DNA from: Pseudomonadota bacterium
GTDB lineage: Bacteria; Pseudomonadota; Gammaproteobacteria; Burkholderiales; Thiobacillaceae
Assembly: GCA_021791235.1 (NCBI GenBank)
Contig: JAJYXA010000086.1
Location: 1-13,151, forward strand
Direction of reading: 5' to 3'
Length of the DNA stretch: 13,151 bases
Both the position numbers and the translations under genes were made by a program. This document shows, in pieces, positions 1,205-13,151 of this stretch. Position 1 is the stretch's first letter. Each line of letters opens with the position of its first letter. Under the pieces are notes generated by a model. That model was given only the letters and a program-made list of their open reading frames with translations. It ran no database searches and had not been told where the DNA came from.

Positions 1205-2311
1205 TCAGGATTTTTCGAGCAGTCCCAGCCACTCCGCCTTCAAGTCGGCCTCCTTTCGGCAGGCGAGGCACAGTCCGGCGGCTTTCGCGGCGGAGACATG
1301 AGCCCGCCCGCAGGCAGTGCAGACGGCGAGCGGGCGGTCGACCAGCGGCGTCCTGCCGCCGGCGACAGCGCTGACGGACGCGACCTCCCCGGTGGCGATC
1401 GCTCGCTGCGGGCAGATCCATTCGCACAGCCGGCAGGAGGTGCATAGACCCGGCTCGAAGTCGATGCCGCGCGCTGTCGGTTTATGCCAGGCCGTGAGGG
1501 CGCCCGTCGGGCAGCGTTGCGCGCAAACGAGGCAAGCGTCGCACTTCTCACCGATGCTTCGTTGCCGCCAGGGCAGTTGCCGCCACGACAGATCGGCGAC
1601 GCGTTCCCGCAGCAGCGCCTGATAAGCTGCCGGGCGCTGCTGCGCCGGATCCGGCGGCGGGCGGGCGGCGGAATCGGGATTGCCGTCCTGCCCGGGCGGC
1701 AACAGCCGCGCGGCGGCAGTGACGGTCGCCCGCAAGCCGGCGCCGCGCAGAAAGCCCCGGCGCGAGCGGATGGCACGGTCTTGCCGCCAGCGTCGGACCT
1801 GCTCTTGATCCTGGTTCTCCGGCGCGACGCTCACCTCCGGCGCTCGCTGCCCGAACCACGACTGCAGCGTTCCTTGCAGCGAGGCTAGCCCGGCAAGCGC
1901 GCTGCCCATCGGACAGGGGCCGCATTGGCCCAGACCGTGGAGCTGGAATGAGACCGTGCCGGCAGCATGCGCGGCCGCCAGCAGCCGCGCGTCAAGAATG
2001 CCGTGGCAGGGGACGGCCACGCCGCTCTCGGGTGTGCGGCTGGCGCTGCAATGGATGTGGACGGTCGCTTGCCCCTGCAACGGGCGCAGAAAATCCCGGG
2101 GCGAGAATCCGCTCAAGCTGATCGCGCCGACGGGGCACTTCGGGACGCAGGCGCCGCAGGCGGTGCACCGCTTCGGATCGACAGCGATGCCGTCGGGTGA
2201 GAGGGACAGCGCCCTCCCCGCGCAAGCGTCCCGACAGTCGGCACAGAGACTCATGCGGGCGCGGACGTTGAGGCAAGCCGCGGCGTCGGTCAGCAGCGGG
2301 GAATTCGCCAT
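1205..2311 (-). CDS. Polyferredoxin with a central four-cysteine domain and NapF-like C-terminal half
   Basis: This 368-residue protein is the last gene of the minus operon. The N-terminal ferredoxin domain has C23/C26/C30 and a full CxxCxxCxxxCP at 49-60. A central domain (about 84-155) carries C88, C102, C130 and C133 with PCHG and GQCGPCP. These spacings recall the iron-sulfur domains of MvhD/FlpD-type electron-transfer proteins, but I am unsure. Next comes an internal RSRRGFLRGAG stretch (182-192), then two more CxxCxxCxxxCP motifs (257-268 and 290-301) in a NapF/NapG-like layout. A C-terminal pair of CxxC motifs (331/334 and 348/351) looks like a zinc ribbon. The ATG at 2311 is chosen because homology-like sequence starts there and it lies 10 bp after the preceding stop; an earlier in-frame Met would overlap that gene. 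There is no N-terminal signal, so it is probably cytoplasmic and may carry electrons to, or help assemble, the operon's complex. Confidence 0.82.
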   Translation of the reverse strand: MANSPLLTDAAACLNVRARMSLCADCRDACAGRALSLSPDGIAVDPKRCTACGACVPKCPVGAISLSGFSPRDFLRPLQGQATVHIHCSASRTPESGVAVPCHGILDARLLAAAHAAGTVSFQLHGLGQCGPCPMGSALAGLASLQGTLQSWFGQRAPEVSVAPENQDQEQVRRWRQDRAIRSRRGFLRGAGLRATVTAAARLLPPGQDGNPDSAARPPPDPAQQRPAAYQALLRERVADLSWRQLPWRQRSIGEKCDACLVCAQRCPTGALTAWHKPTARGIDFEPGLCTSCRLCEWICPQRAIATGEVASVSAVAGGRTPLVDRPLAVCTACGRAHVSAAKAAGLCLACRKEADLKAEWLGLLEKS

Positions 2312-2821: not shown

Positions 2822-4030
2822 TCAATTCAAGCTGCCGAGATAGTTGGAGATCAGCTTCAGATCGTCGCTCTTGAGCCCGGTGGCGACGTCGAGCATGATC
2901 GAATGGGCGCTGCGGCTCCGCTTCCGGAAGGCATCCATCTGCGCCTGGGCATATTCGGGAGACTGCCCCGCCAGCCGCGGGAATATGCCCTGCCCCCTGC
3001 CGCTCAAGCCGTGACAGCGCGCGCATTTTTCCCGATACAGGCGCTCGCCTATCTCCAGATCGGCACGTGCCTGAAGCTGCAAGACCTTGGGCCGGATCAC
3101 CGTGGGACGCATCTGCTGCTGGCTGAAATACATGGAGAGGTTCGCCATGTCGGAGACGCTCAGCGCGGCAACCATGCCCGACATCACCGGATTGCTGCGG
3201 CTGCCGTTCTTGAAGTTCTGCAGCTGCATGAAGATGTAGTTGGCGTTGAGTTGCGCGATGCTCGGGAATGCCGCGGTCGGGCTGTTGCCGTCCGGTCCGT
3301 GACAGCCGGCGCAGAGCTGGGATTTGGCTTGCCCTTCCTTGAAGTTGCCGTTCTCTGCCGCCGTCGGCTTGCCGGTCCAGGGAGCGGGGTAGGACAGGTT
3401 GTGCATCAGGTTCTGGTGGCATTGCACGCAGGTCATCTTCTCCTGCACCATCTGCAGATGCGGCGGAATTTCCGGCCTGAATTCCCCGAGCGTGCCCTTG
3501 AGCAAGGCCTGGTGCGCCGGGTCGGTGTGGCATTCACGGCAGCGCTGGCTGTCGTTGGCCAGAAACCGCGCGCGGGCCTTGTTGGCGAGATCCGGCGACA
3601 GCGTCTTGTTATAGGTGTCCCGATCGCGCAAGCCGATTTGCACCTGATCGATCCAGGTCTTCGGCGCCAGGTACATATAGTCGAACCAGTTGTAGACCGA
3701 ATGCACGTTGTCATGGCAGTTGGTGCATCCCGGCCGCAGCGGATTTTTGCTGCTGCCCATCGCGGACAGCTGGTATTCCTCGTACTGAACCGGATGGCAT
3801 TCGGCGCAGCCGATGGTCACGCCTCTGGGCGGAAGCCTGTTGCCACTGGGATTGAACGCGTAGGCGGACTCGTCATACCAGGTCTCGTGGCAGGTGCTGC
3901 AGGTGCCGGGCGTCTGGAACACCGACCTGACGCCCGGAACGGGAATGGCGCCGAGTTTTCCGGCGAGCAATATCCCCAGCAGGACCAGCACGCCGGCCGC
4001 GGTAAAAATGATTTTGCGTTTCTTGGTCAT
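2822..4030 (-). CDS. Membrane-anchored heptaheme cytochrome c (NapC/NirT-like fused to two class I c domains)
   Basis: This 402-residue protein has an uncleaved-looking N-terminal helix (residues 7-25) followed by a periplasmic body with seven CxxCH heme motifs, at C44, C75, C102, C164, C201, C240 and C336. The first five fall in a NapC/NirT/NrfH-like region, ending in CVQCHQNLMH, which resembles the family's last motif CxxCHxxxxH. The last two are separate monoheme domains (CAGCHGPDG and CARCHGLSGRG) with candidate Met ligands downstream. NapC-family proteins pass electrons between the quinone pool and periplasmic partners. The two extra domains could be an onward wire, as TorC carries one extra heme domain. 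Its ATG overlaps the stop of the large subunit gene as ATGA with an AGAGG-type ribosome site, so translation is probably coupled. The electron-transfer direction is not evident. Confidence 0.88.
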   Translation of the reverse strand: MTKKRKIIFTAAGVLVLLGILLAGKLGAIPVPGVRSVFQTPGTCSTCHETWYDESAYAFNPSGNRLPPRGVTIGCAECHPVQYEEYQLSAMGSSKNPLRPGCTNCHDNVHSVYNWFDYMYLAPKTWIDQVQIGLRDRDTYNKTLSPDLANKARARFLANDSQRCRECHTDPAHQALLKGTLGEFRPEIPPHLQMVQEKMTCVQCHQNLMHNLSYPAPWTGKPTAAENGNFKEGQAKSQLCAGCHGPDGNSPTAAFPSIAQLNANYIFMQLQNFKNGSRSNPVMSGMVAALSVSDMANLSMYFSQQQMRPTVIRPKVLQLQARADLEIGERLYREKCARCHGLSGRGQGIFPRLAGQSPEYAQAQMDAFRKRSRSAHSIMLDVATGLKSDDLKLISNYLGSLN

Positions 4031-6381
4031 GCCCTTACCTCTTGCGCCGATTTTTCCGTATCGCCGTCCGCGAGCAACTTCGAGGCGTCTATGCTGAGCT
4101 TGCCGTAGCGATCGCCGGGCTCCGCCTTGTGCACGGTGACGGCGGTGGCGCAGGCCGCGCCGCCGCCCTGCTCGTCGAACAGGGCGGGAATCAGGTCCAT
4201 CGGGTGAGTGCCCGGGTCGGCCCACCACAGATTGTGGTTGATGTCCTCATCGGGATTGTCGCTAGCCCCCTCGTGTTCGGGTCCGGCGCTGCCGTCGGCC
4301 ACGCTGCCGATGCGCCAGTGCCCGCTGGCGTTGTGCATGGCGACCACGTCCGGGCGGATGGTCTGGGTCAGATGGGCCTTGGTCACCAGGTGGCCCGCCT
4401 GTGAGCTGACCCGCACCAGGTCGCCGTCGCCGATGCCCATCGCCTGCGCCGTCGCGTGGTTGATGTGCAGGTGATTGGCGAGGGTGGCTTCCCTGATCAC
4501 CTTGTTGTTGGCCGAAGCGTCGCCGGCATAGTAGTCGGAGGCATGGACCACCAGCGTGAGTTCGCCGCCGGCCGTCGCCGTATCCTTGGCCGCCTGCCAA
4601 TGGGGGAAGGGATCGAGGTCGAGCTTCACCGGCTTGCCGTAATGCGGCATCACTTCTTCGCCCTGCTCATCGACGATGCGCCGGATGTCGGGATGGAGAT
4701 AGCCGTAGATCGGCCAGACGCCGCTGTGCTTGGCCATCAGCTCCCAGCCGCCGTCCTTCTTCAGTCCCGGCACGCCGCCCAACTGCATGGCCAGCCATTC
4801 CCTGGTGTCGCCGAACTGCCAGTACTTGGCGGCCCCCGGGTCGTTCGTCGCCTGGACGATGTCGCGCAGGATGGTGCGCAGTTCGCGAGCCTCGCCCACG
4901 GGGGGGCTGACCTGCTGGCGCAGCCCGATCCAGGGCAGCAGGCTGCCTTGGCCTGCCACCGGCTCGTTGCGCTCCAGCCAGTGGGCCTCCGGAAGTATCA
5001 GGTCCGCCAGATCCCAGGTCTCGTTGCGGAAGCTGTCGATGGCCACGAACAGCTTGACCCGGCTCTCGTCGGCGAGGGCCTGGCGCCACGCTGCCGCCGC
5101 CGGGGCGTCGAAGGCCGGATTGGTGTTGTAACCGAACAGCAGGTCGATCGGATACTGCTTCCCGGCCTCGATGGGAAAGCGATGCGGGCGCTCGATCGGA
5201 TTTCTGCCGGCGGGGCTGGCGGGTTTCGGCAGCAGATCGCCCAGCGCGATCTGCCGGGGCAGGCAGGTGCCGCCCTGTACCTCGAAGCCGCCGGTGATCA
5301 GCGGCAACAGCATCAAGGCACGCTCGGTGTCGTAGCCGTTGGTGTGTCCGCTGGTGCCCGAGCCGGTGATGATGCAGCCGCGCTCGCTCTCGGCGAATTG
5401 CCGGGCGATGCTCCTTATGTCCAGGGCAGCGACGCCGCTCACCGCCGCCGCGTGCTCCAGCGTGTAGGGCTTCAGTTCCTTGGCCAGGGTATCGACGCTC
5501 AAGTTGCTGAACCGGGTGATCGCGGCCTTGTCGGCCAGGCCCTCCTGCAGCAGGTAGTTGGCCATCGCCAGGGCGACCAGCCCATCGGTCCCGGGCCGCA
5601 ACGGCAACCACTCGTCGGACAGGCCGGCGGTCTTGGAGCAACGCGGATCGAAGGTGGCGATCTTGGCCCGGCGGTAGAGCCTGCCGTCCATGGCTTCCGC
5701 CGCGTAATCGGGTTGGGAGACCAGAAAGTTGGTGCCGAAATTGAGGATGTAATGGGAGTGCGCCAGATCGGGAATCGCGTCCGCCGCGCCCCAGGCCGCC
5801 TGCCAGGCTGCCTGCCGGTTGGTGCCGGTCGCCAGCGGAATGAAGCTGTTCGAACCCAGGGTGTGCAGGAGGCGCTGCCAGGCGCCGGCGCTGGTATCCT
5901 TGCCGTGCAGCAAGGCGATTGCCTCCGGCTTGCTCTTGGCGATCGCCTGGGCGATTTCCTGATTGGCCTGTTGCCAGGTGATCTCCTGCCATTTTCCCGA
6001 GCCGCGCGGCCCGGCGCGTTTCAGCGGCTTCTGCAGGCGGTCGCCGTCATAGAGTTGCAGCCAGGCCGAGGCCTCGGCGGCGCTGACCCGGCCGCGACTG
6101 CGCACCGACTCGGTCACGCCGGAGAGCTCGACCACCAGCCTTCCCGGTTTGCCGGTGAGGAGGTTTCTCTGCAGCGGATCCTGTTCCACCCAGGCGATCA
6201 CCGGGTTGTCGTGCGCGTGCAGCGGGGAACAGGTGAACACGCGCTCCCGCGGCTCGCGTTTGATGTAGTTGTACGACTCGTTGCCCAGGGCCAACTCCAT
6301 GGCCCCCGCCTGCTGCATGACCCCGAGCGCCGCCACCGAGCCGGCGCTGCCCTTGAGGAATTGACGTCGATTGATCTTCAT
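4027..6381 (-). CDS. Tat-exported molybdopterin-oxidoreductase-fold large subunit lacking the usual metal ligands
   Basis: This 784-residue protein belongs to the DMSO reductase superfamily. It starts MKINRRQFLKGSAG, a twin-arginine signal. Family blocks are clear: KPLKRAGPRGSGKWQEITW (118-136), HYILNFGTN (210-218), IATFDPRCSKT (241-251), LRPGTDGLVALAMA (261-274), GYNTNPAF (417-424), LILPEAHWLERNEPV (461-475) and a C-terminal pterin-domain block near 656-690. It has only five cysteines (51, 248, 336, 373, 744) and no CxxC pair, so the N-terminal [4Fe-4S] cluster of psr/phs-type enzymes is absent. The place where PhsA has its Mo-binding Cys reads ATGTN (184-188), with Gly aligned to the Cys. 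It may be a scaffold, as in alternative complex III ActB, or bind Mo without a protein ligand. The ribosome site GAGGAA supports the ATG at 6381. Confidence 0.88.
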   Translation of the reverse strand: MKINRRQFLKGSAGSVAALGVMQQAGAMELALGNESYNYIKREPRERVFTCSPLHAHDNPVIAWVEQDPLQRNLLTGKPGRLVVELSGVTESVRSRGRVSAAEASAWLQLYDGDRLQKPLKRAGPRGSGKWQEITWQQANQEIAQAIAKSKPEAIALLHGKDTSAGAWQRLLHTLGSNSFIPLATGTNRQAAWQAAWGAADAIPDLAHSHYILNFGTNFLVSQPDYAAEAMDGRLYRRAKIATFDPRCSKTAGLSDEWLPLRPGTDGLVALAMANYLLQEGLADKAAITRFSNLSVDTLAKELKPYTLEHAAAVSGVAALDIRSIARQFAESERGCIITGSGTSGHTNGYDTERALMLLPLITGGFEVQGGTCLPRQIALGDLLPKPASPAGRNPIERPHRFPIEAGKQYPIDLLFGYNTNPAFDAPAAAAWRQALADESRVKLFVAIDSFRNETWDLADLILPEAHWLERNEPVAGQGSLLPWIGLRQQVSPPVGEARELRTILRDIVQATNDPGAAKYWQFGDTREWLAMQLGGVPGLKKDGGWELMAKHSGVWPIYGYLHPDIRRIVDEQGEEVMPHYGKPVKLDLDPFPHWQAAKDTATAGGELTLVVHASDYYAGDASANNKVIREATLANHLHINHATAQAMGIGDGDLVRVSSQAGHLVTKAHLTQTIRPDVVAMHNASGHWRIGSVADGSAGPEHEGASDNPDEDINHNLWWADPGTHPMDLIPALFDEQGGGAACATAVTVHKAEPGDRYGKLSIDASKLLADGDTEKSAQEVRA

Positions 6382-6410: not shown

Positions 6411-6443
6411 GTGCCCTGGGTTGTCTTCGACAACTACGGGCAC
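6411..6443 (-). other. Intercistronic stem-loop before the large-subunit gene
   Basis: In the 61-bp gap between the NrfD-like and large-subunit genes, GTGCCC (6411-6416) pairs with GGGCAC (6438-6443), and inside it TTGTC (6421-6425) pairs with GACAA (6429-6433) around a TTC loop, with a G-C and a wobble pair extending the inner stem. GGCAC-AA-GTGCC (6404-6415) could form a competing hairpin. There is no T-run, so it is not a classical terminator. A role in mRNA processing, stability or relative subunit expression is inference. Confidence 0.35.
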
Positions 6444-7354
6444 TAGTAGTGGCCCTGGTAATAGTAGGTGCCCATCACCCACCAGATGCGCATGCCATAG
6501 ACGCCGGTGGCGCACATGAACGCCGCACCCAGCACCCAGCTCATCCGTCGGTTGATCTTGGGTATGACCAGGATGACCAGCGGCAGCAGCAGCCCCCAGA
6601 CGATCTCCAGGTAGAGATAGGGCCAGCGGAAAACTCCGAGCAGCACGTCGTAGAGCATCGTGTGCTCCTCGGCCACGCCGTAGGTCATCTGCAGGAACTC
6701 GTTGCCCAGCAGGAACAGGTCGAAAACGATGCCGTAGAGCATCAGCCTGGCCATGTCGGTGATCAATTCGATCGGCACCTGCTTTTCCGCCGCGAGAAAC
6801 TTGTTGCGCACCCACAGGCAGCAGATCAGAAAGCCGATGCCCGAGACGTAGGCGCCGGTCAGGAATAGGATCGGCGCGACCGAGGTGTGGTTGGGTACGC
6901 GCGACGGATTCAATTGCATCACCACCCCGGTATACCAGTGCGTGCACAACGCCAGAACCACCGCCAGAATGCCCAGACGGCGGGCCCAGCGTTCGTTCTT
7001 CTGATAGACGAAGTAGCTGTAGCACATCATCGCGATCGGATAAGTCAGGATGAAGCACGAACCCCAGACCATCGGCGCCGACCAGTGGCTGAAGCTCGAG
7101 AGCAGCAGCAGGTGGAAGAAGCGGTAGGGCTTGCCCAGGTCGATGATCAGGAGCACCGGCACGATCATCAACATGACGATCGCGGTGTTGGAGGCGAAGA
7201 AGGCGGTGGCCTTGTACTTCTTGACCCCGAACACCCAGCCCAGCGAGCTGATCACGAAGGAGCCGGCCGAGACGCCGACCAGCCAGAAATACAGGGCGAT
7301 GGGAAAGCCCCAGTAGGCATGGTGAAATGCGTTGGCTATCATTTGCCCTTCCAT
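6443..7354 (-). CDS. NrfD/PsrC-type polytopic membrane subunit
   Basis: This 303-residue integral membrane protein has about eight hydrophobic helices (roughly residues 14-40, 50-73, 92-118, 127-149, 160-185, 200-224, 237-262 and 271-294). The block IDLGKPYRFFHLLL near residue 71 matches the DLGxPxRFxH signature of NrfD/PsrC proteins, and VPNHTSVAPILFLTGAYVSG matches the next conserved segment. These subunits anchor the Fe-S and catalytic subunits and exchange electrons with quinone, binding no heme. The ATG at 7354 overlaps the TGA of the Fe-S gene by one base (TGATG), with an AGGGGG ribosome site upstream. A second Met four codons later, with its own GGAAGGG, is a possible alternative start. 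Only one NrfD-type subunit is encoded here, whereas alternative complex III has two. Confidence 0.92.
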   Translation of the reverse strand: MEGQMIANAFHHAYWGFPIALYFWLVGVSAGSFVISSLGWVFGVKKYKATAFFASNTAIVMLMIVPVLLIIDLGKPYRFFHLLLLSSFSHWSAPMVWGSCFILTYPIAMMCYSYFVYQKNERWARRLGILAVVLALCTHWYTGVVMQLNPSRVPNHTSVAPILFLTGAYVSGIGFLICCLWVRNKFLAAEKQVPIELITDMARLMLYGIVFDLFLLGNEFLQMTYGVAEEHTMLYDVLLGVFRWPYLYLEIVWGLLLPLVILVIPKINRRMSWVLGAAFMCATGVYGMRIWWVMGTYYYQGHY

Positions 7355-8196
7355 CAGTACAGCCCCCTGAAAAATTTGTGCGGCACCTGCGCGAAGAACG
7401 ACGAGAAATTGCGCACGATGTGTCTCATCAGGCCCCAGAAACCCATGTCCGTGTCGATGATGTCGCCGGCCATCTCGCCGCCCAGTTCGCTGTTGCGCTT
7501 GAAGCTGTTGTAGCGCTCGTGCAGCTGGGCGCTGCGGTTGTGAAAGGCGAACTCGGGATCGCCGATCGATTCGGTGAGGCCGATGTAATAGACCTGCGGG
7601 GCGGTCCCGAGCTCGACGCGCAGATTGAAGGTCTTGCTCTCGCGCAGCAGGCGCGCGACCTCGCTTTTCGGATCGTTGATGTCGCCGAACACCATCGCGC
7701 CGCCGGTGCAGGAGGCGACGCAGATCGGCGCCAGACCCCGGGTCACGCGCACCACGCAGAAGTCGCATTTGTCCGCGACATTGCGCGGATTGTTTTTCTC
7801 GCGCCGGTACTCGGGCAGCAGGTGCCGGGCGTTGTAGGGGCAGGCCACCATGCAGGTGCGGCAGCCGATGCAGCGGTTGTAGCGCTGCAGCACGAAGCCG
7901 TCGGGATGCTTGAAGGTGGATTTGGTCGGGCAGCTGCGGACGCAGGAGGGCTCGTCGCACTGGTTGCACAGCCGCGGCAACACCGCGCGCCGGGTATCCG
8001 GAAATTCCCCGAACTCCGCCTCCGCGACCCAGATGCGCCAATCGCCCAGGGGAACGTCGAAGGAAGTCTTGCACGAGGCGGTGCAGGCGTTGCAGCCGGT
8101 GCAGCGGCGCAGGTCGACCACCATGGCGTAGCGCTTGCGTCCGGGTTTGCCCTTGCTCGGCGACACCCCGTCAAAACCATAGACTCGCTCTGCCAT
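7354..8196 (-). CDS. Four-[4Fe-4S] electron-transfer subunit (DmsB/PhsB/PsrB family)
   Basis: This 280-residue protein carries all sixteen cysteines expected for four cubane clusters: C32/C35/C38/C42, C77/C80/C85/C89, C109/C112/C115/C119 and C144/C147/C159/C163, including CTGCNACTASCK and CIGCRTCMVACP. This is the standard B-subunit of complex iron-sulfur molybdoenzymes, forming a wire between the membrane NrfD subunit and the large subunit. There is no signal peptide; such subunits are normally exported together with a Tat-bearing partner, here the large subunit. A GGGGAG ribosome site precedes the ATG at 8196. The C-terminal 100 residues extend past the cluster domain without a transmembrane helix and contain an aromatic-rich amphipathic end. 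The intact cluster set contrasts with the missing cluster in the large subunit. Confidence 0.93.
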   Translation of the reverse strand: MAERVYGFDGVSPSKGKPGRKRYAMVVDLRRCTGCNACTASCKTSFDVPLGDWRIWVAEAEFGEFPDTRRAVLPRLCNQCDEPSCVRSCPTKSTFKHPDGFVLQRYNRCIGCRTCMVACPYNARHLLPEYRREKNNPRNVADKCDFCVVRVTRGLAPICVASCTGGAMVFGDINDPKSEVARLLRESKTFNLRVELGTAPQVYYIGLTESIGDPEFAFHNRSAQLHERYNSFKRNSELGGEMAGDIIDTDMGFWGLMRHIVRNFSSFFAQVPHKFFRGLY

Positions 8197-8278: not shown

Positions 8279-8914
8279 TCATTTCGCGAGCGAAACCCTA
8301 TGGTTGAACATATAGATGACCGCCCCACGGATTTCGCCGTCGGTCAGATCGGCCATGCCGCCACGCGCCGGCATGCCGCCGTGACCGTTGATCGCGGAGC
8401 GTACCAGGGCATCGATCCCGTGCCTTCCGCGCGGGATCCAGGCGGCCCGGTCGCCAATCTTGGGTGCCCCACCGACGCCCGTCAGATGGCATTTGCTGCA
8501 CTGTATCTGCACGATTTCCTTGCCGGGACGGTCAACAATCTTGATGCTTTTGTCGGTCGGATCGATCCAGTGACCGCCCGAGCGATTGACCATGTAGGTG
8601 ATCGCGCGCTCGATTTCATAATTGCTGATGCCCGGATTGCCGCCATGCGCCGGCATTTTCCGGATACCCGTGATCGCGTGCAGTTTGAGACCGCTGAGCC
8701 CTTGCGCGGCACGCTTGCTCCAGGCTTTCACGTCGCCGATTCTGGGTGCGCCATACTTCCCTGTGCCGTGACAACGGGCGCACACCGTCTTGACCACTTC
8801 CTCGCCGCTGCGCTGACCATTTGCGGCCCACGCCTGATGCACGGTCATCGATAGCGACAGAGCAAAAATAACGTATTGGAATCCCAGCCAGTTCTGTGTC
8901 TTGGTATCGCGCAT
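8279..8914 (-). CDS. Secreted diheme cytochrome c (c5-like tandem)
   Basis: This 211-residue protein is the first gene of the minus operon. A Sec-type signal (hydrophobic 12-25, likely cleaved after AWA at 28-30) is followed by two similar c-type domains. Domain 1 has CARCHG (C45, C48, H49) and Met87 in KMPAHGG; domain 2 has CSKCH (C139, C142, H143) and Met181 in GMPARGG. The MPxxGG ligand motif and the GAPxIGD repeat (55-61 and 149-155) show an internal duplication and suggest the cytochrome c5/c555 type. It probably shuttles electrons in the periplasm to or from the heptaheme cytochrome. The ATG at 8914 is preferred over an upstream in-frame Met because it has a GAGAGG ribosome site and starts the signal peptide. 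Confidence 0.92.
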   Translation of the reverse strand: MRDTKTQNWLGFQYVIFALSLSMTVHQAWAANGQRSGEEVVKTVCARCHGTGKYGAPRIGDVKAWSKRAAQGLSGLKLHAITGIRKMPAHGGNPGISNYEIERAITYMVNRSGGHWIDPTDKSIKIVDRPGKEIVQIQCSKCHLTGVGGAPKIGDRAAWIPRGRHGIDALVRSAINGHGGMPARGGMADLTDGEIRGAVIYMFNHRVSLAK

Positions 8915-9027
8915 GTTGCCTCTCTCGCTTAGATGGGCTGACAGACTTTTCGTGTTTCCGGCATTGAGGACGCGGGTGTCATTCTTTTTGAGTGGCTGAA
9001 TAGTGCCGTTCCACACAATGTCGCTTT

Positions 9028-9041
9028 TTGATCTATATCAA
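9028..9041. promoter_or_regulatory. Perfect FNR/ANR-type box (box 1)
   Basis: TTGATCTATATCAA matches the FNR consensus TTGAT-N4-ATCAA exactly. It lies in the divergent region 120 bp (centre) upstream of the diheme cytochrome ATG. A class II arrangement (-41.5) would place transcription start near 8993 on the minus strand, leaving a leader of about 79 bases; the -10 there (CACTAT) is weak. FNR-family regulators activate anaerobic respiration genes when oxygen is low. Other CRP/FNR members (Dnr, NnrR) use similar boxes. Confidence 0.7.
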
Positions 9042-9047
9042 GCGAGC

Positions 9048-9061
9048 ATGATCTTGATCAA
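9048..9061. promoter_or_regulatory. Near-perfect FNR/ANR-type box (box 2)
   Basis: ATGATCTTGATCAA matches 9 of 10 consensus positions of TTGAT-N4-ATCAA. Its centre is exactly 20 bp from box 1, about two helical turns, so both would be on the same DNA face. It is closer to the histidine kinase gene and could serve that promoter, or act with box 1 on the minus operon. No strong -10 is visible on either side. Confidence 0.55.
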
Positions 9062-9193
9062 GTAACCTGAATGTGGCTTTGGACTAAAGCGTTCGGCATA
9101 GATGATAAGCATAGTTCATTCGAATATTAAACCGGTGGAGAACTCCTTGGCCCTTTCCGGACCCGTGCACTTGAGTCTTTCCCGCACATTCGT

Positions 9194-10702
9194 ATGGGCA
9201 GCGTCACCGCCGTGAATCTCACCCTGCGTAGTAAAGGCATTCTCGCTTTCATTGCCATCGTGTTTTATGTAATGGTGGTCGCGCTCTACGTTTCCCACGA
9301 GCGACAAAAGTTGTTCCACGTCGTCGAGCAATTGGAGCAGGTTCATGCTAAGCAACAGTTGCTGATTCGCGTCAACACCTCCCTGGGCCATTCCGTCATC
9401 GAACTCCAGGAGATGTTGAATGTGGAAACAAAAAAGCCGCAATACGGCGATGTGATCAACGGTGTCCGGGCGGTCGTTTCCGGCATGCACGCCCTGAAGG
9501 CAATCTATCCGGCGCTGGTGTCCAAGGATACCGATGATCTTGAACTGAACATCGCTTCGCTATGGGCGGTGCCCAGCCGTAATAATCTGAGCGTTATCCG
9601 CGACAGCGAGCTGAAGTTGATCGAGAAATTGAACGAAATAACCAAGGTGTTGCAGGGCAAACGTGACGATCTCAACGACATTTACCACAATATCAACCAG
9701 ACCATACCGCTGGTTGCGTCGGTGATGTATCTGCTCGGCCTGGGAGTTTACGGCACCGTGGTGCTGGTGTTTTTCACGCGGCTCGCGTCGGATATCAAGC
9801 GGCTCGAGGCACGGGCGCTGGCGGTGGTCGCCGGTTATCGCGGCGAGCCGCTTGGCGTGACCCGGCGCGATGAGGTGGGCGGTTTGATGGAGGCGGTCAA
9901 TCGGATGCAGGCGGTGCTGCGCCGTTCGGAGCAACAACAGGAGATTTCACGGCAGCAGCGTTTTCACCAGGAAAAGATGGCGGCTGTTGGTTCCCTGGCG
10001 TCTGCCATCGGGCACGAGGTGAGCAATCCGATGGCGGCGATCTCGGGTATCTCCCAATTCATCATCGAAGCCACCACGCCCGAACCCGGCGTCCATAAAG
10101 AGAGAAGACTGAGCAACAGCGCGGTCCATGACCACGCCGAACTGATACTCCAGCACACCGAACGCATCGCGGCGATCATGCGCCAGATGTCCACCCTGAC
10201 CGAGCGCAGTTCGCCACTGCCGGAACTGCTCGACCTCAATGCGCTGATTAGAGCGACCTGCAGCTTCATCAGTTACGACCAGCGATTCCGCAAAATTCGC
10301 TTCGAACTGGACCTCGACCCGGGGATTCCCGCGATCACCGCGGTGGCGGATCACCTGACCCAGGTCCTGATGAATCTGCTGATCAACGCCGCAGATGCCA
10401 TGGAGGGTCAGGCCGAGAGCAAGGCAGCGGTGATCCGGATATGCTCGCGCGAGGCCGAGCGCAAAGTTCTGCTGACGCTTAGTGACACCGGCCACGGCAT
10501 GAGCCCGGAGTTGCTCATGCAGGCATTCACGGAATCCTTCACCACCAAGCCGGTCGGGAAGGGACGCGGCATAGGCTTGTTCCTGTGCAAGACGCTGATC
10601 GAGGAAGCGGGCGGCAGCATCACGCTGGAATCGACCCAGGGCGTTGGCACCACGGCGCGGCTGGTCCTGCCCGTGCAGCATCCCCAGACGGAGGCGCTCT
10701 GA
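9194..10702 (+). CDS. Membrane sensor histidine kinase of an NtrC-type two-component system
   Basis: This 502-residue protein has TM1 (about 14-33), a periplasmic segment (about 35-170) of mostly helical character that I cannot assign to a named sensor family, TM2 (about 171-194), a HAMP-like linker (195-249), then a HisKA domain with phospho-acceptor His274 in SAIGHEVSNPMAAISG. The ATPase domain has an N-box (NLLINAADAM, 394-403), G1 (DTGHGM, 431-436) and G2 (GKGRGIGLFLCK, 455-466). The family resembles NtrB/ZraS-type kinases paired with sigma-54 activators, and the partner follows 5 bp downstream. The ATG at 9194 lacks a good ribosome site; GTG at 9212 is an alternative start. It is divergent from the electron-transfer operon, so it may sense a periplasmic or redox signal relevant to it. 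Confidence 0.93.
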   Translation: MGSVTAVNLTLRSKGILAFIAIVFYVMVVALYVSHERQKLFHVVEQLEQVHAKQQLLIRVNTSLGHSVIELQEMLNVETKKPQYGDVINGVRAVVSGMHALKAIYPALVSKDTDDLELNIASLWAVPSRNNLSVIRDSELKLIEKLNEITKVLQGKRDDLNDIYHNINQTIPLVASVMYLLGLGVYGTVVLVFFTRLASDIKRLEARALAVVAGYRGEPLGVTRRDEVGGLMEAVNRMQAVLRRSEQQQEISRQQRFHQEKMAAVGSLASAIGHEVSNPMAAISGISQFIIEATTPEPGVHKERRLSNSAVHDHAELILQHTERIAAIMRQMSTLTERSSPLPELLDLNALIRATCSFISYDQRFRKIRFELDLDPGIPAITAVADHLTQVLMNLLINAADAMEGQAESKAAVIRICSREAERKVLLTLSDTGHGMSPELLMQAFTESFTTKPVGKGRGIGLFLCKTLIEEAGGSITLESTQGVGTTARLVLPVQHPQTEAL

Positions 10703-10707
10703 GGCCC

Positions 10708-12096
10708 ATGCCCTCCCTCAACGTCCTGGTGATTGACGATGAACCGGCGCTGCGGCAGATCCTCGCCGCGACGGTGGGCAGGGCCGGCTATAGCGTCGAT
10801 ACCGCGGCCGGCGTCGTCGAGGCCGCCGCCAAGCTCAAGCGCGGCGATGTCGATGTGGCACTGTGCGACATCAAGATGGAAGACGGCAACGGCATCGACC
10901 TGTTGCGCCAGAGCCAGGCTGCCGGTCTCGATACCGTGTTCGTCATGGTGACGGCGTTCGCCTCGCTGGAGACCGCCGTGGAAGCGCTCCGCGCCGGCGC
11001 TTTCGACTATATCGTCAAGCCCGTGCGCAATCAGGAAGTGCTGCACCGGCTGGCGCAGATCGAGGACATGCGCGAATTGCGCGATGAAAACGTCGCCCTG
11101 CGTAAAGCAGTGAAAGACATCAGTCCGCCGGTGTTCCGCTTTGGTTCGCCCGGGATGCTCGAAGTCGAACGCCTGGTGGGCAAGGTGGCGCCGACCGACA
11201 GCACGGTCCTGATCGTCGGGGAAAGCGGTACCGGCAAGGGCGTGCTGGCGCACCTCATTCACGAACAGAGCACCCGTCACGGCGGCCCTTTCGTGCCGGT
11301 CAATTGCAGCGCGATTCCGGAGCAGTTGCTCGAAAGCGAATTCTTCGGCCATACCAAGGGCGCGTTCACCGGCGCCGACAAGGCGCGCAAGGGACTGTTC
11401 CTCGAGGCCGACCGGGGCACGCTGTTTCTTGATGAGATCGGCGAATTGCCGCTGCAGATGCAGACCAAGCTACTGCACGTGATCGAGGACAAGCAGGTGA
11501 GGGCGGTGGGCAGCGAGCTGGGCCGGCACGTCGACTGTCGCATCATCGCGGCAACCAACCGCAATCTGGCGGAGTCGATCAGCCAGGGCAGGTTCCGCGA
11601 AGACCTGTTTTTTCGTCTGAGCATGTTCCAGATCGCCATCCCGCCGCTGCGCGAGCGGCAAGGCGATATCCGTGGTCTGGTGCAGTTCCTGCTGAATAGC
11701 AGCAAGGTGGGGAGCAAAGCCACACCGGCGATCGAAATAGATCCGGAAGCCTTGACCTGCTTGCTCGCATACGGTTGGCCGGGCAATGTGCGGGAGCTCG
11801 ACAACGTCATCAAGCGGGCGCGCATCCTCGCCGAGAACAACTGCATCTCGGTCGCCGATCTGCCGGTGGAGATGGTCATCACGAAATCGCCGGTGAGCGC
11901 TGCCGAACAGGGGAGCGTCATGGAAGGGGGCTTGCGTGCGCAACTGCGGCGGGTCGAGGCCGAGCTCATCAAGAGCGCCATCGATGCTGCCGGCGGCGAT
12001 CGCCGGCTAGCCGCGCAAACTCTGGGGATCAGCCTGTCGAGTCTGTACGGCAAACTGGGGGGCGATCCGGAGCGAAAACAAGAGATTTGTAAATAG
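10708..12096 (+). CDS. NtrC-family sigma-54-dependent response regulator
   Basis: This 462-residue protein has the full three-domain layout. The receiver domain (1-120) has acidic pocket D10/D11, phosphorylation site D54, T82 and K104. The AAA+ sigma-54 activation domain (about 145-385) has Walker A GESGTGKG (171-178), the sigma-54 contact loop GAFTGA (218-223), Walker B GTLFLDEIGE (237-246) and the WPGNVREL block (357-364). The C-terminal Fis-type helix-turn-helix (about 430-450) reads RRLAAQTLGISLSSLYGKL. It would activate a sigma-54 promoter when phosphorylated by the kinase. The start at 10708 follows the kinase stop by 5 bp with GAGG upstream; a longer in-frame extension overlaps the kinase and is unlikely. 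I see no convincing TGGCAC-N5-TTGC promoter in the non-coding gaps of this window, so its target is not identified. Confidence 0.95.
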   Translation: MPSLNVLVIDDEPALRQILAATVGRAGYSVDTAAGVVEAAAKLKRGDVDVALCDIKMEDGNGIDLLRQSQAAGLDTVFVMVTAFASLETAVEALRAGAFDYIVKPVRNQEVLHRLAQIEDMRELRDENVALRKAVKDISPPVFRFGSPGMLEVERLVGKVAPTDSTVLIVGESGTGKGVLAHLIHEQSTRHGGPFVPVNCSAIPEQLLESEFFGHTKGAFTGADKARKGLFLEADRGTLFLDEIGELPLQMQTKLLHVIEDKQVRAVGSELGRHVDCRIIAATNRNLAESISQGRFREDLFFRLSMFQIAIPPLRERQGDIRGLVQFLLNSSKVGSKATPAIEIDPEALTCLLAYGWPGNVRELDNVIKRARILAENNCISVADLPVEMVITKSPVSAAEQGSVMEGGLRAQLRRVEAELIKSAIDAAGGDRRLAAQTLGISLSSLYGKLGGDPERKQEICK

Positions 12097-12130: not shown

Positions 12131-13151
12131 ATGTCCGAAAACCGTCACAACGCCGCCAACAACGCCGCCCGTCGCCTCGCCGGCATCCTGAGCGCGGGGC
12201 TGCTGCTCCTGGCCGGTTGCACCACGACGCAGGGGCCGGAGAAAAATATCAAGCTGGTCTGGCCCGGCCCGCCCCTGCCCACCCGCATCAAGTTCGTCCG
12301 TTCGCTGTTCGGCGAAAAGGACATGGTCAGCGACGACACCTTCAAGACGGATCTGGTGCAGTTTCTCACCGGCAAGAAGCCGCCGGAAAACCGCATCACG
12401 GAACCCATGGGCATCGCGGTTTCCGACGATGGCCAGCGCGTCTATGTCTCCGACTTCGTGCAACTGTGCGTGTTCAAGTTCGATTTCGCCAAGAAGACCT
12501 TCACCAAGATCACCAAGGACAAGCAGCTCGAACGGCCCGCGGGGATCGCGCTCGATGCCGCCGAAAATGTCTACGTCGTCGAGTCGGACAAGAAGGGCAT
12601 CGCCGTTCTGAGTCCGGAGGGCAAGGAGATCCGCTTCATCACCGATCCCTCGATCGCGCGCCCCACCGGCATCGCCATCGACCGGGCGCGCGGCAGGATC
12701 TACCTGGCCGACACCTCGCACAGCAAGGCCACCGAGCACACCGTCAAGATCTTCGATATGCAGGGCAAGCTGATCGGCCACCTGGGCAAGGGCAAGGGCT
12801 CGGATCCCGGCCAGTTCCTGTTCCCCACCTACGTCACCCTGGATCCGCAGGGCGATGTCTATGTCTCCGACACGCTCAACTCGCGGGTGCAGGAATTCGA
12901 TCCCGAGGGCAAGTACCTCAAGAGCTATGGCGAACGCGGCAATAGCTGGGGCATGTTCGACAAGCCCAAGGGCGTCGCCCTCGACAGCTACGGCAACCTC
13001 TACGTGGTCGATTCCGGCTGGAGCAATATCCAGATCTTCAACCAGAAAAAACAGATCCTGATGTTCTTCGGCGGTCGCGGGCCCATCCCCGGCATGCTCA
13101 GGAATCCGACCTCGATCGCCATCGACAAGAACAACAAGATCTATGTCGGCG
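12131..13151 (+). CDS. NHL-repeat beta-propeller lipoprotein (partial, 3' end beyond window)
   Basis: At least 340 residues are present with no stop before the edge. The N-terminus has a basic region, a hydrophobic stretch and the lipobox LLAGC with Cys30, followed by Thr; this indicates lipid attachment and probably outer-membrane sorting. The body has repeated NHL-type blades marked by PMGIAVSDDG, PAGIALDAA, PTGIAIDRA, PTYVTLDPQG, PKGVALDSYG and PTSIAIDKN, each followed by a YVSD/YLAD/YVVD-type strand. Six starts are visible, fitting a six-bladed propeller. Such proteins are often scaffolds for protein or ligand binding and in some bacteria lie beside multiheme cytochrome genes. It follows the response regulator by 34 bp, with a purine-rich AGAAAGAGAG before the ATG, and may be cotranscribed with it. 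Confidence 0.85.
   Translation, partial: MSENRHNAANNAARRLAGILSAGLLLLAGCTTTQGPEKNIKLVWPGPPLPTRIKFVRSLFGEKDMVSDDTFKTDLVQFLTGKKPPENRITEPMGIAVSDDGQRVYVSDFVQLCVFKFDFAKKTFTKITKDKQLERPAGIALDAAENVYVVESDKKGIAVLSPEGKEIRFITDPSIARPTGIAIDRARGRIYLADTSHSKATEHTVKIFDMQGKLIGHLGKGKGSDPGQFLFPTYVTLDPQGDVYVSDTLNSRVQEFDPEGKYLKSYGERGNSWGMFDKPKGVALDSYGNLYVVDSGWSNIQIFNQKKQILMFFGGRGPIPGMLRNPTSIAIDKNNKIYVG

Follow-up and report, generated by a model that had tools for sequence, protein, structure and literature searches.

What does a molybdoenzyme-fold large subunit do when it carries neither the ligands of its iron–sulphur (Fe-S) cluster nor the usual protein ligand of molybdenum? The question is raised by contig JAJYXA010000086.1 (assembly GCA_021791235.1, a Pseudomonadota bacterium of the Thiobacillaceae), whose 13,151 nucleotides are referred to here as the window. 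A gene on its minus strand, with the ATG at 6381 and the stop at 4027, encodes such a subunit of 784 amino acids (aa). The initial annotation had located this gene correctly at 4027..6381, leaving the strand unstated, and had proposed a cofactor-free or atypical member of its superfamily; the ligand residues are lost family-wide, and this proposal is supported as the best reading. More specifically, the protein is probably a cofactor-free MopB scaffold of a quinone:cytochrome c oxidoreductase resembling Qrc and alternative complex III (ACIII), with an origin separate from that of ActB1. The direct observations behind this reading are the loss of ligand residues, a conserved operon, haem and cluster motifs, the predicted fold and a placement nested among Mo-type relatives.

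The large subunit carries a twin-arginine translocation (Tat) signal and contains, as reported earlier, five cysteines and no CxxC motif. Structure prediction, which had been suggested as a check, yielded a full MopB fold with a predicted local distance difference test score (pLDDT) of 89.2, and the fold matches agree; together with a Molybdopterin domain, this fold places the protein in the MopB superfamily. Residues 184–188 read A184-T185-G186-T187-N188, the ATGTN segment pointed out previously as the equivalent of the Mo site.

To define the family, we retained the best 120 of 165 matches from a protein search in which 7998 candidates were scored. Group F1 (P0002–P0067) is 61–100% identical to the query and group F2 (P0068–P0106) 38–44%, depending on the aligner, while later matches are mostly at 34–38%. 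CxxC is absent from P0001–P0067 and from P0068–P0106, with P0051, P0064 and P0065 lacking the N-terminus and being uninformative on the cluster, indicating that the trait is conserved across F1 and F2. Residues were counted in a 145-row alignment with 62 full-length F1 proteins (excluding truncated P0051 and P0064–P0067, and counting both of the identical P0001 and P0002), 39 F2 proteins and 20 rows of a related group of ~880 aa; the group tables exclude fragments P0111 and P0113, and alignment A2 took 96 of the 121 proteins.

The column of the Mo-binding Cys is a gap in 62/62 F1 and 39/39 F2 proteins, so that no ligand of the PsrA/PhsA type is present, and Cys-type relatives have a Mo-site loop that is longer by ~2 residues. 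The initial annotation had thus aligned this site roughly correctly. Within F1, position 185 is G in 34 proteins, D in 18, T in 3 and other residues in the rest, and position 187 lies at the 94th percentile of variability. Asp occupies position 184 in 45/62 F1 proteins; the window protein has Ala, and an Asp ligand is thus unavailable there. The N-terminal [4Fe-4S] cluster (FS0) has lost its ligand set as well: the first Cys is kept in all 62 F1 proteins (as C51) and in none of the 39 F2 proteins, the second in neither group, and the fourth in no F1 and two F2 proteins, leaving no four-ligand site. In addition, no F1 or F2 protein has the Lys that follows the fourth FS0 Cys or the Arg within the HxQSRT motif of domain IV, each of which is kept in 19/20 rows of the ~880-aa group. 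Across the 145 rows, the Mo-Cys and the domain-IV Arg are both present in 26 and both absent in 111; Arg occurs alone in four (three ActB1 rows and P0110) and Cys alone in four (distant Mo-type proteins), a co-occurrence that is descriptive, because the rows share ancestry.

We then considered the order in which these residues disappeared. In a quick tree of 70 rows, F1 is monophyletic (SH-aLRT 100), as is F1 with 12 of 13 F2 rows (99), locus L064 falling outside. A careful tree of 38 rows, built without the long-branched L064 and others, rooted at the midpoint and supported by ultrafast bootstrap (UFBoot) and SH-aLRT, unites all 18 ligand-less rows of this line in one clade (100/100, recovered in 200 of 200 bootstrap trees) that is nested among Cys-type rows. 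The first branch of this clade is P0107, which keeps CxxC and lacks the Mo-Cys; it was placed in the ~880-aa group for the residue counts, where it is the sole row of 20 without the Mo-Cys. The remaining 17 rows group together (98/95) and split into P0108, P0110 and L053, with FS0 Cys kept and no Mo-Cys, versus F2 plus F1 (100/99). The branching of P0107 and of P0108/P0110/L053 makes the loss of the Mo ligand first and of FS0 later the simplest order. ActB1 rows of the ACIII type, named by eye and by QrcB score (four in the quick tree, three in the careful tree), do not group with F1; those of loci L021–L023 form a clade of their own (100/100). QrcB is in neither tree, and kinship to Qrc was judged on model scores. 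The alignment and tree that had been proposed as checks thus show the ligand columns lost in a protein nested in a Mo-type group, apart from ActB1. As a separate observation, the MopB proteins P0114, P0115 and P0117–P0121 combine a complete FS0 motif with the absence of the Mo-Cys and may be a further line of loss.

The nearest relatives outside the ligand-less clade are the ~880-aa proteins found in many genomes, with a CESSKK Mo site, CxxC and the Mo-Cys in 19/20 rows. In the rows shown, their FS0 reads C-x2-C-x3-D plus a later Cys, and one ligand may be Asp. Their operons contain genes for an Fe-S subunit, an NrfD-type subunit and MopB, followed by a NarJ/TorD-type chaperone gene, which matches PF02613 in the two operons tested and carries a TorD annotation in the one on the plasmid of Azoarcus sp. 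KH32C; moaA is over its cut-off inside the fetched stretches of L056 and L057, and no multihaem cytochrome was seen beside these operons within the fetched stretches. The plasmid operon (L070; MopB at 8989–11628) lies near arsAB and beside a kinase/sigma-54 pair.

Loci with intermediate composition survive. L053 (7289–14328) encodes Fe-S and NrfD subunits, a MopB with CxxC and without the Mo-Cys, and then two cytochromes, one pentahaem and NapC-like (PF03264), the other a cd1 protein (PF02239). L060 has the same tail behind a partial MopB in which FS0 and the Mo site are not visible, with dsrJOP-like genes nearby as judged by eye, and zetaproteobacterial L067 encodes Fe-S, NrfD, a MopB lacking both CxxC and the Mo-Cys, and a seven-haem cytochrome. 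The pentahaem cytochrome of L053 can be aligned to haems 1–5 of the heptahaem one in the window (29% over 192 aa, E 3e-22). F1 NrfD proteins share 50–59% identity with their L053 and L067 counterparts but 22–28% with Mo-type ones, while F1 Fe-S proteins are 47–55% identical to L053 and Mo-type proteins alike; a change or swap of NrfD therefore seems to have accompanied the loss of Mo.

The genes surrounding the large subunit in the window are as follows.

193–1137, CysB-family LysR regulator (501 bits, cut-off 402), adjoining the operon end
1205..2311, minus strand, polyferredoxin-like 4Fe-4S protein of 368 aa
2322..2825, minus strand, orphan conserved protein of 167 aa, its TTG start overlapping the cytochrome stop
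2822..4030, minus strand, heptahaem cytochrome c with seven CxxCH motifs and an N-terminal hydrophobic stretch as putative membrane anchor
4027..6381, minus strand, MopB-fold large subunit
6443..7354, minus strand, NrfD/PsrC-type membrane subunit of 303 aa with seven hydropathy peaks
7354..8196, minus strand, Fe-S subunit of 280 aa with 16 Cys in four four-Cys motifs (best NCBIfam match DsrO, 202.2 bits, cut-off 200)
8279..8914, minus strand, dihaem cytochrome c of 211 aa
9194..10702, plus strand, sensor histidine kinase, divergent from the operon
10708..12096, plus strand, NtrC-type sigma-54 response regulator
12131–13150, open-ended open reading frame (ORF) with NHL repeats (PF01436, 94.5 bits) and a lipoprotein-like start, downstream of the kinase/sigma-54 pair

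From their motifs and hydropathy, the Fe-S subunit would hold four [4Fe-4S] clusters and the NrfD-type subunit would have about eight helices. The cytochrome consists of a NapC/NirT-like part (haems 1–5) and a c-type part (haems 6–7). The orphan protein has no Pfam or NCBIfam match, and its alpha/beta model has no clear match in the PDB; it has 34 homologues, one relative being named Rhodocyclaceae, and Cys116 is invariant across 36 aligned rows. The histidine kinase and the sigma-54 regulator are possible regulators of the operon.

Of the 12 loci given by a genome scan, 11 belong to the F1 type, and the remaining one, from Nitrospinota, is of the Mo type. Along 6652 bases, the window and L009, from the metagenome-assembled genome (MAG) BP4.bin64, agree at 98.4%; the dihaem cytochrome heads the cluster in these two near-identical loci and is the best match in none of the other loci compared. 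Taken with the Rhodocyclaceae relative of the orphan protein, this makes a betaproteobacterial host probable. The order FeS-NrfD-MopB is found in 10/11 F1 loci, with L019 beginning inside MopB, and both the heptahaem cytochrome behind MopB and the orphan gene are present in 10/11, the contig of L010 ending first. A relative of the ferredoxin accompanies 8/11 loci; those in L015 and L016 are weaker (27–30%) and lie on the opposite strand. L054, from a gammaproteobacterial genome that is 99% complete, has the identical six-gene order in its ORF list. The operon had been described as psr-like: the FeS-NrfD-MopB core is indeed present, but the heptahaem partner brings its make-up nearer to Qrc and ACIII than to Psr. 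Three of the 11 F1 MAGs (G062, G063 and G068) also carry an ACIII-type cluster (L021, L022 and L023; genes other than MopB named by eye), and in L016 the operon is followed, after ~3 kb, by genes for a Rieske protein and cytochrome b, so that the complex would be an addition there rather than a replacement. In the class of G070, 4/78 genomes have a relative, which marks the complex as accessory.

Considering these data together, we propose that the MopB subunit, having lost its Mo ligand and FS0, is exported by the Tat system and acts in the periplasm as a scaffold. Assembled around it would be the four-cluster Fe-S subunit, the quinone-binding NrfD-type membrane subunit and the membrane-anchored heptahaem cytochrome c, with electrons passing between the NrfD quinone site, the Fe-S clusters and the haems and bypassing any cofactor in MopB. 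For the direction we would slightly prefer quinol oxidation, because the C-terminal haem domain is of the c-type; quinone reduction as in Qrc would be nearly as likely. A more far-reaching version of the proposal, which we judge to be evenly poised, describes an independently evolved class of quinone:cytochrome c complex, in which a Mo enzyme became a cofactor-free scaffold: the Mo ligand was lost as the operon acquired a NapC-like cytochrome and exchanged its NrfD, FS0 was lost and haems were added afterwards, intermediates survive, and the complex runs in some Mariprofundaceae that make no molybdenum cofactor (Moco).

The most serious alternative is that the large subunit binds the molybdenum/tungsten bis(pterin guanine dinucleotide) cofactor (Mo/W-bisPGD) without a protein ligand, in the manner of AioA, and acts as an atypical oxidoreductase feeding the cytochrome or the quinone pool. 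We consider this unlikely, although a number of observations weigh against a cofactor-free scaffold. The residues D245, R247, D266, G216 and N218 (motifs DxR, PGTD and FGxN), which we take to be contacts to the pterin guanine dinucleotide, show no variation among the 62 F1 proteins, are kept in F2 except for N (36/39), and are mostly changed in the four ActB1 rows; a protein that is purely a scaffold would not require them, and their retention speaks for the AioA-like reading. The Molydop_binding domain is still matched (E 2.8e-13) in a protein with a full fold and a Tat signal, and the His of the domain-IV motif is kept in 43/62 F1 proteins (11/39 in F2). Formation of a single complex is, moreover, suggested by synteny only. 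Against an AioA-like cofactor stand the loss of the Lys and the domain-IV Arg from all F1 proteins, the shortened and variable Mo-site loop and the nested position after a stepwise loss. AioA keeps a [3Fe-4S] cluster and pairs with a Rieske subunit, whereas a single FS0 Cys remains here and the partners are Fe-S, NrfD and cytochrome subunits. Nor was a chaperone gene found: no TorD/NarJ protein occurs among the ten window proteins or nine tested neighbours in L011, L013, L014, L016 and L054, the remaining F1 neighbours having been checked by eye; TorD is all-helical, unlike the alpha/beta model of the orphan protein.

The Moco genes of the carrier genomes speak to both sides. Favouring a cofactor, moaA is over its cut-off in 10/12 F1 genomes, and MoaE is present in 8/12; including G877, MoaC is over its cut-off in 7/13, with two more below, and MoeA_N is found in 9/13. 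Conversely, no moaA, moaC, moaE or MoeA_N was found in two MAGs of Mariprofundaceae, G070 with 1.7 Mb and G072 with 1.2 Mb. The best moaA match in G070 scores 30.6 bits against a cut-off of 284, and its two PF00384 proteins are the F1 protein and NuoG (533 bits, cut-off 470). G072 has only part of its F1 gene, and other MAGs have similar gaps: G062 lacks moaC, moaE and MoeA_N and has moaA, G063 lacks moaC, G065 lacks moaE and G068 lacks MoeA_N. Gaps in MAGs can mimic a loss of Moco, and the absence in G070 and G072 is supportive rather than decisive.

It is more doubtful still that the conserved cysteines form a new metal or cluster site. C51, C248 and C373 are conserved in 62/62 F1 proteins and C336 in 61/62, exactly four cysteines are present in 31/62, and C248 and C336 occur in 0/39 F2 and 0/20 ~880-aa rows. 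However, F2 (39/39) and the ~880-aa group (20/20) also have C373, and the ~880-aa group has C51 too; position 248 is again a Cys in 2/10 more distant Mo-type rows, and the secondary structure suggests that C336 and C248 would lie at opposite ends of neighbouring strands.

A diverged ActB1 or QrcB protein is very improbable. The working parts, a multihaem cytochrome, Fe-S and NrfD subunits and a ligand-less MopB, are the same, and the QrcB model does match the large subunit (158.9 bits), but this falls short both of the cut-off of 440 and of the score reached by the PhsA model (235.2 bits). ActB1 proteins from three F1 MAGs have QrcB as their best model (300, 289 and 290 bits, all below cut-off) and fall elsewhere in the trees, one NrfD gene is present here compared with two in ACIII, and the same three of 11 F1 MAGs carry their ACIII-type cluster separately. 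Finally, a decaying or mis-assembled gene, which the loss of ligand residues by itself could suggest, can practically be dismissed, since the reading frames of F1 are intact across classes and the ratio of nonsynonymous to synonymous substitution rates (dN/dS) is 0.10–0.11 in four comparisons, of which one is saturated at a dS of 2.0, and 0.25 for the very close pair of the window and L009, values indicating that the gene is not decaying.

If the scaffold reading holds, its interest lies in the history of the fold. A 2023 study of the superfamily counts three losses of Mo/W-bisPGD among MopB proteins (PMC10100899); the F1/F2 line looks like a separate loss with surviving intermediates, and our literature search found no description of the ligand-less F1 family. 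The change from enzyme to scaffold is known in other complexes, and the route taken here is apparently separate and traceable, as the surviving intermediates could allow the conversion to be followed step by step. In Mariprofundaceae, Acidiferrobacteraceae and other Proteobacteria, some MAGs of which also have ACIII, the complex is a candidate for exchanging electrons between quinones and the cytochromes of the periplasm. Should the Moco-less genomes be real, they would be genetic proof that the fold works here without Mo.

Among known systems, AioA shares the lack of a protein ligand to Mo, according to PMC10100899. The PsrA/PhsA-like ~880-aa enzymes, exemplified by the Azoarcus sp. KH32C plasmid, share the FeS-NrfD-MopB order, an Fe-S subunit of 47–52% identity and a related ferredoxin in L059 (42%) and L070 (32%); unlike the F1 loci, they keep the Mo-Cys, the FS0 Cys and, where checked, the TorD/NarJ gene, have a distant NrfD and show no multihaem cytochrome beside them. 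ACIII (ActABCDEF, with ActB split into ActB1 and ActB2 in iron oxidisers) likewise combines a Mo-less MopB with Fe-S, NrfD-type and multihaem cytochrome subunits. The ActB1 of iron oxidisers is given in PMC4643136 as keeping CX2CX3CX27C, unlike the window protein; the ActB1-type proteins of F1 MAGs also keep FS0 Cys and branch elsewhere, and a second NrfD, ActD and ActE were not seen in the ORF lists of the window and F1 loci. Qrc is similar in gene content: PMC6303296, PMC8076601 and PMC13059093 describe a membrane-anchored multihaem cytochrome, a cofactor-less MopB, a four-cluster Fe-S protein and an NrfD-type subunit, and the F1 loci bring together the corresponding genes, with a MopB that is ligand-less and by implication cofactor-free. 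The differences are the QrcB score far under its cut-off, seven haems here and six in Qrc, 16 Cys in the Fe-S subunit here versus a [3Fe-4S] cluster listed for QrcC (PMC8076601), and an NrfD of 303 aa with ~8 helices from hydropathy compared with ten in QrcD (PMC13059093). Cofactor-less QrcB and ActB accompany ten-helix NrfD proteins according to PMC6303296, and an NrfD of ~8 helices, as its hydropathy suggests, would break this pattern.

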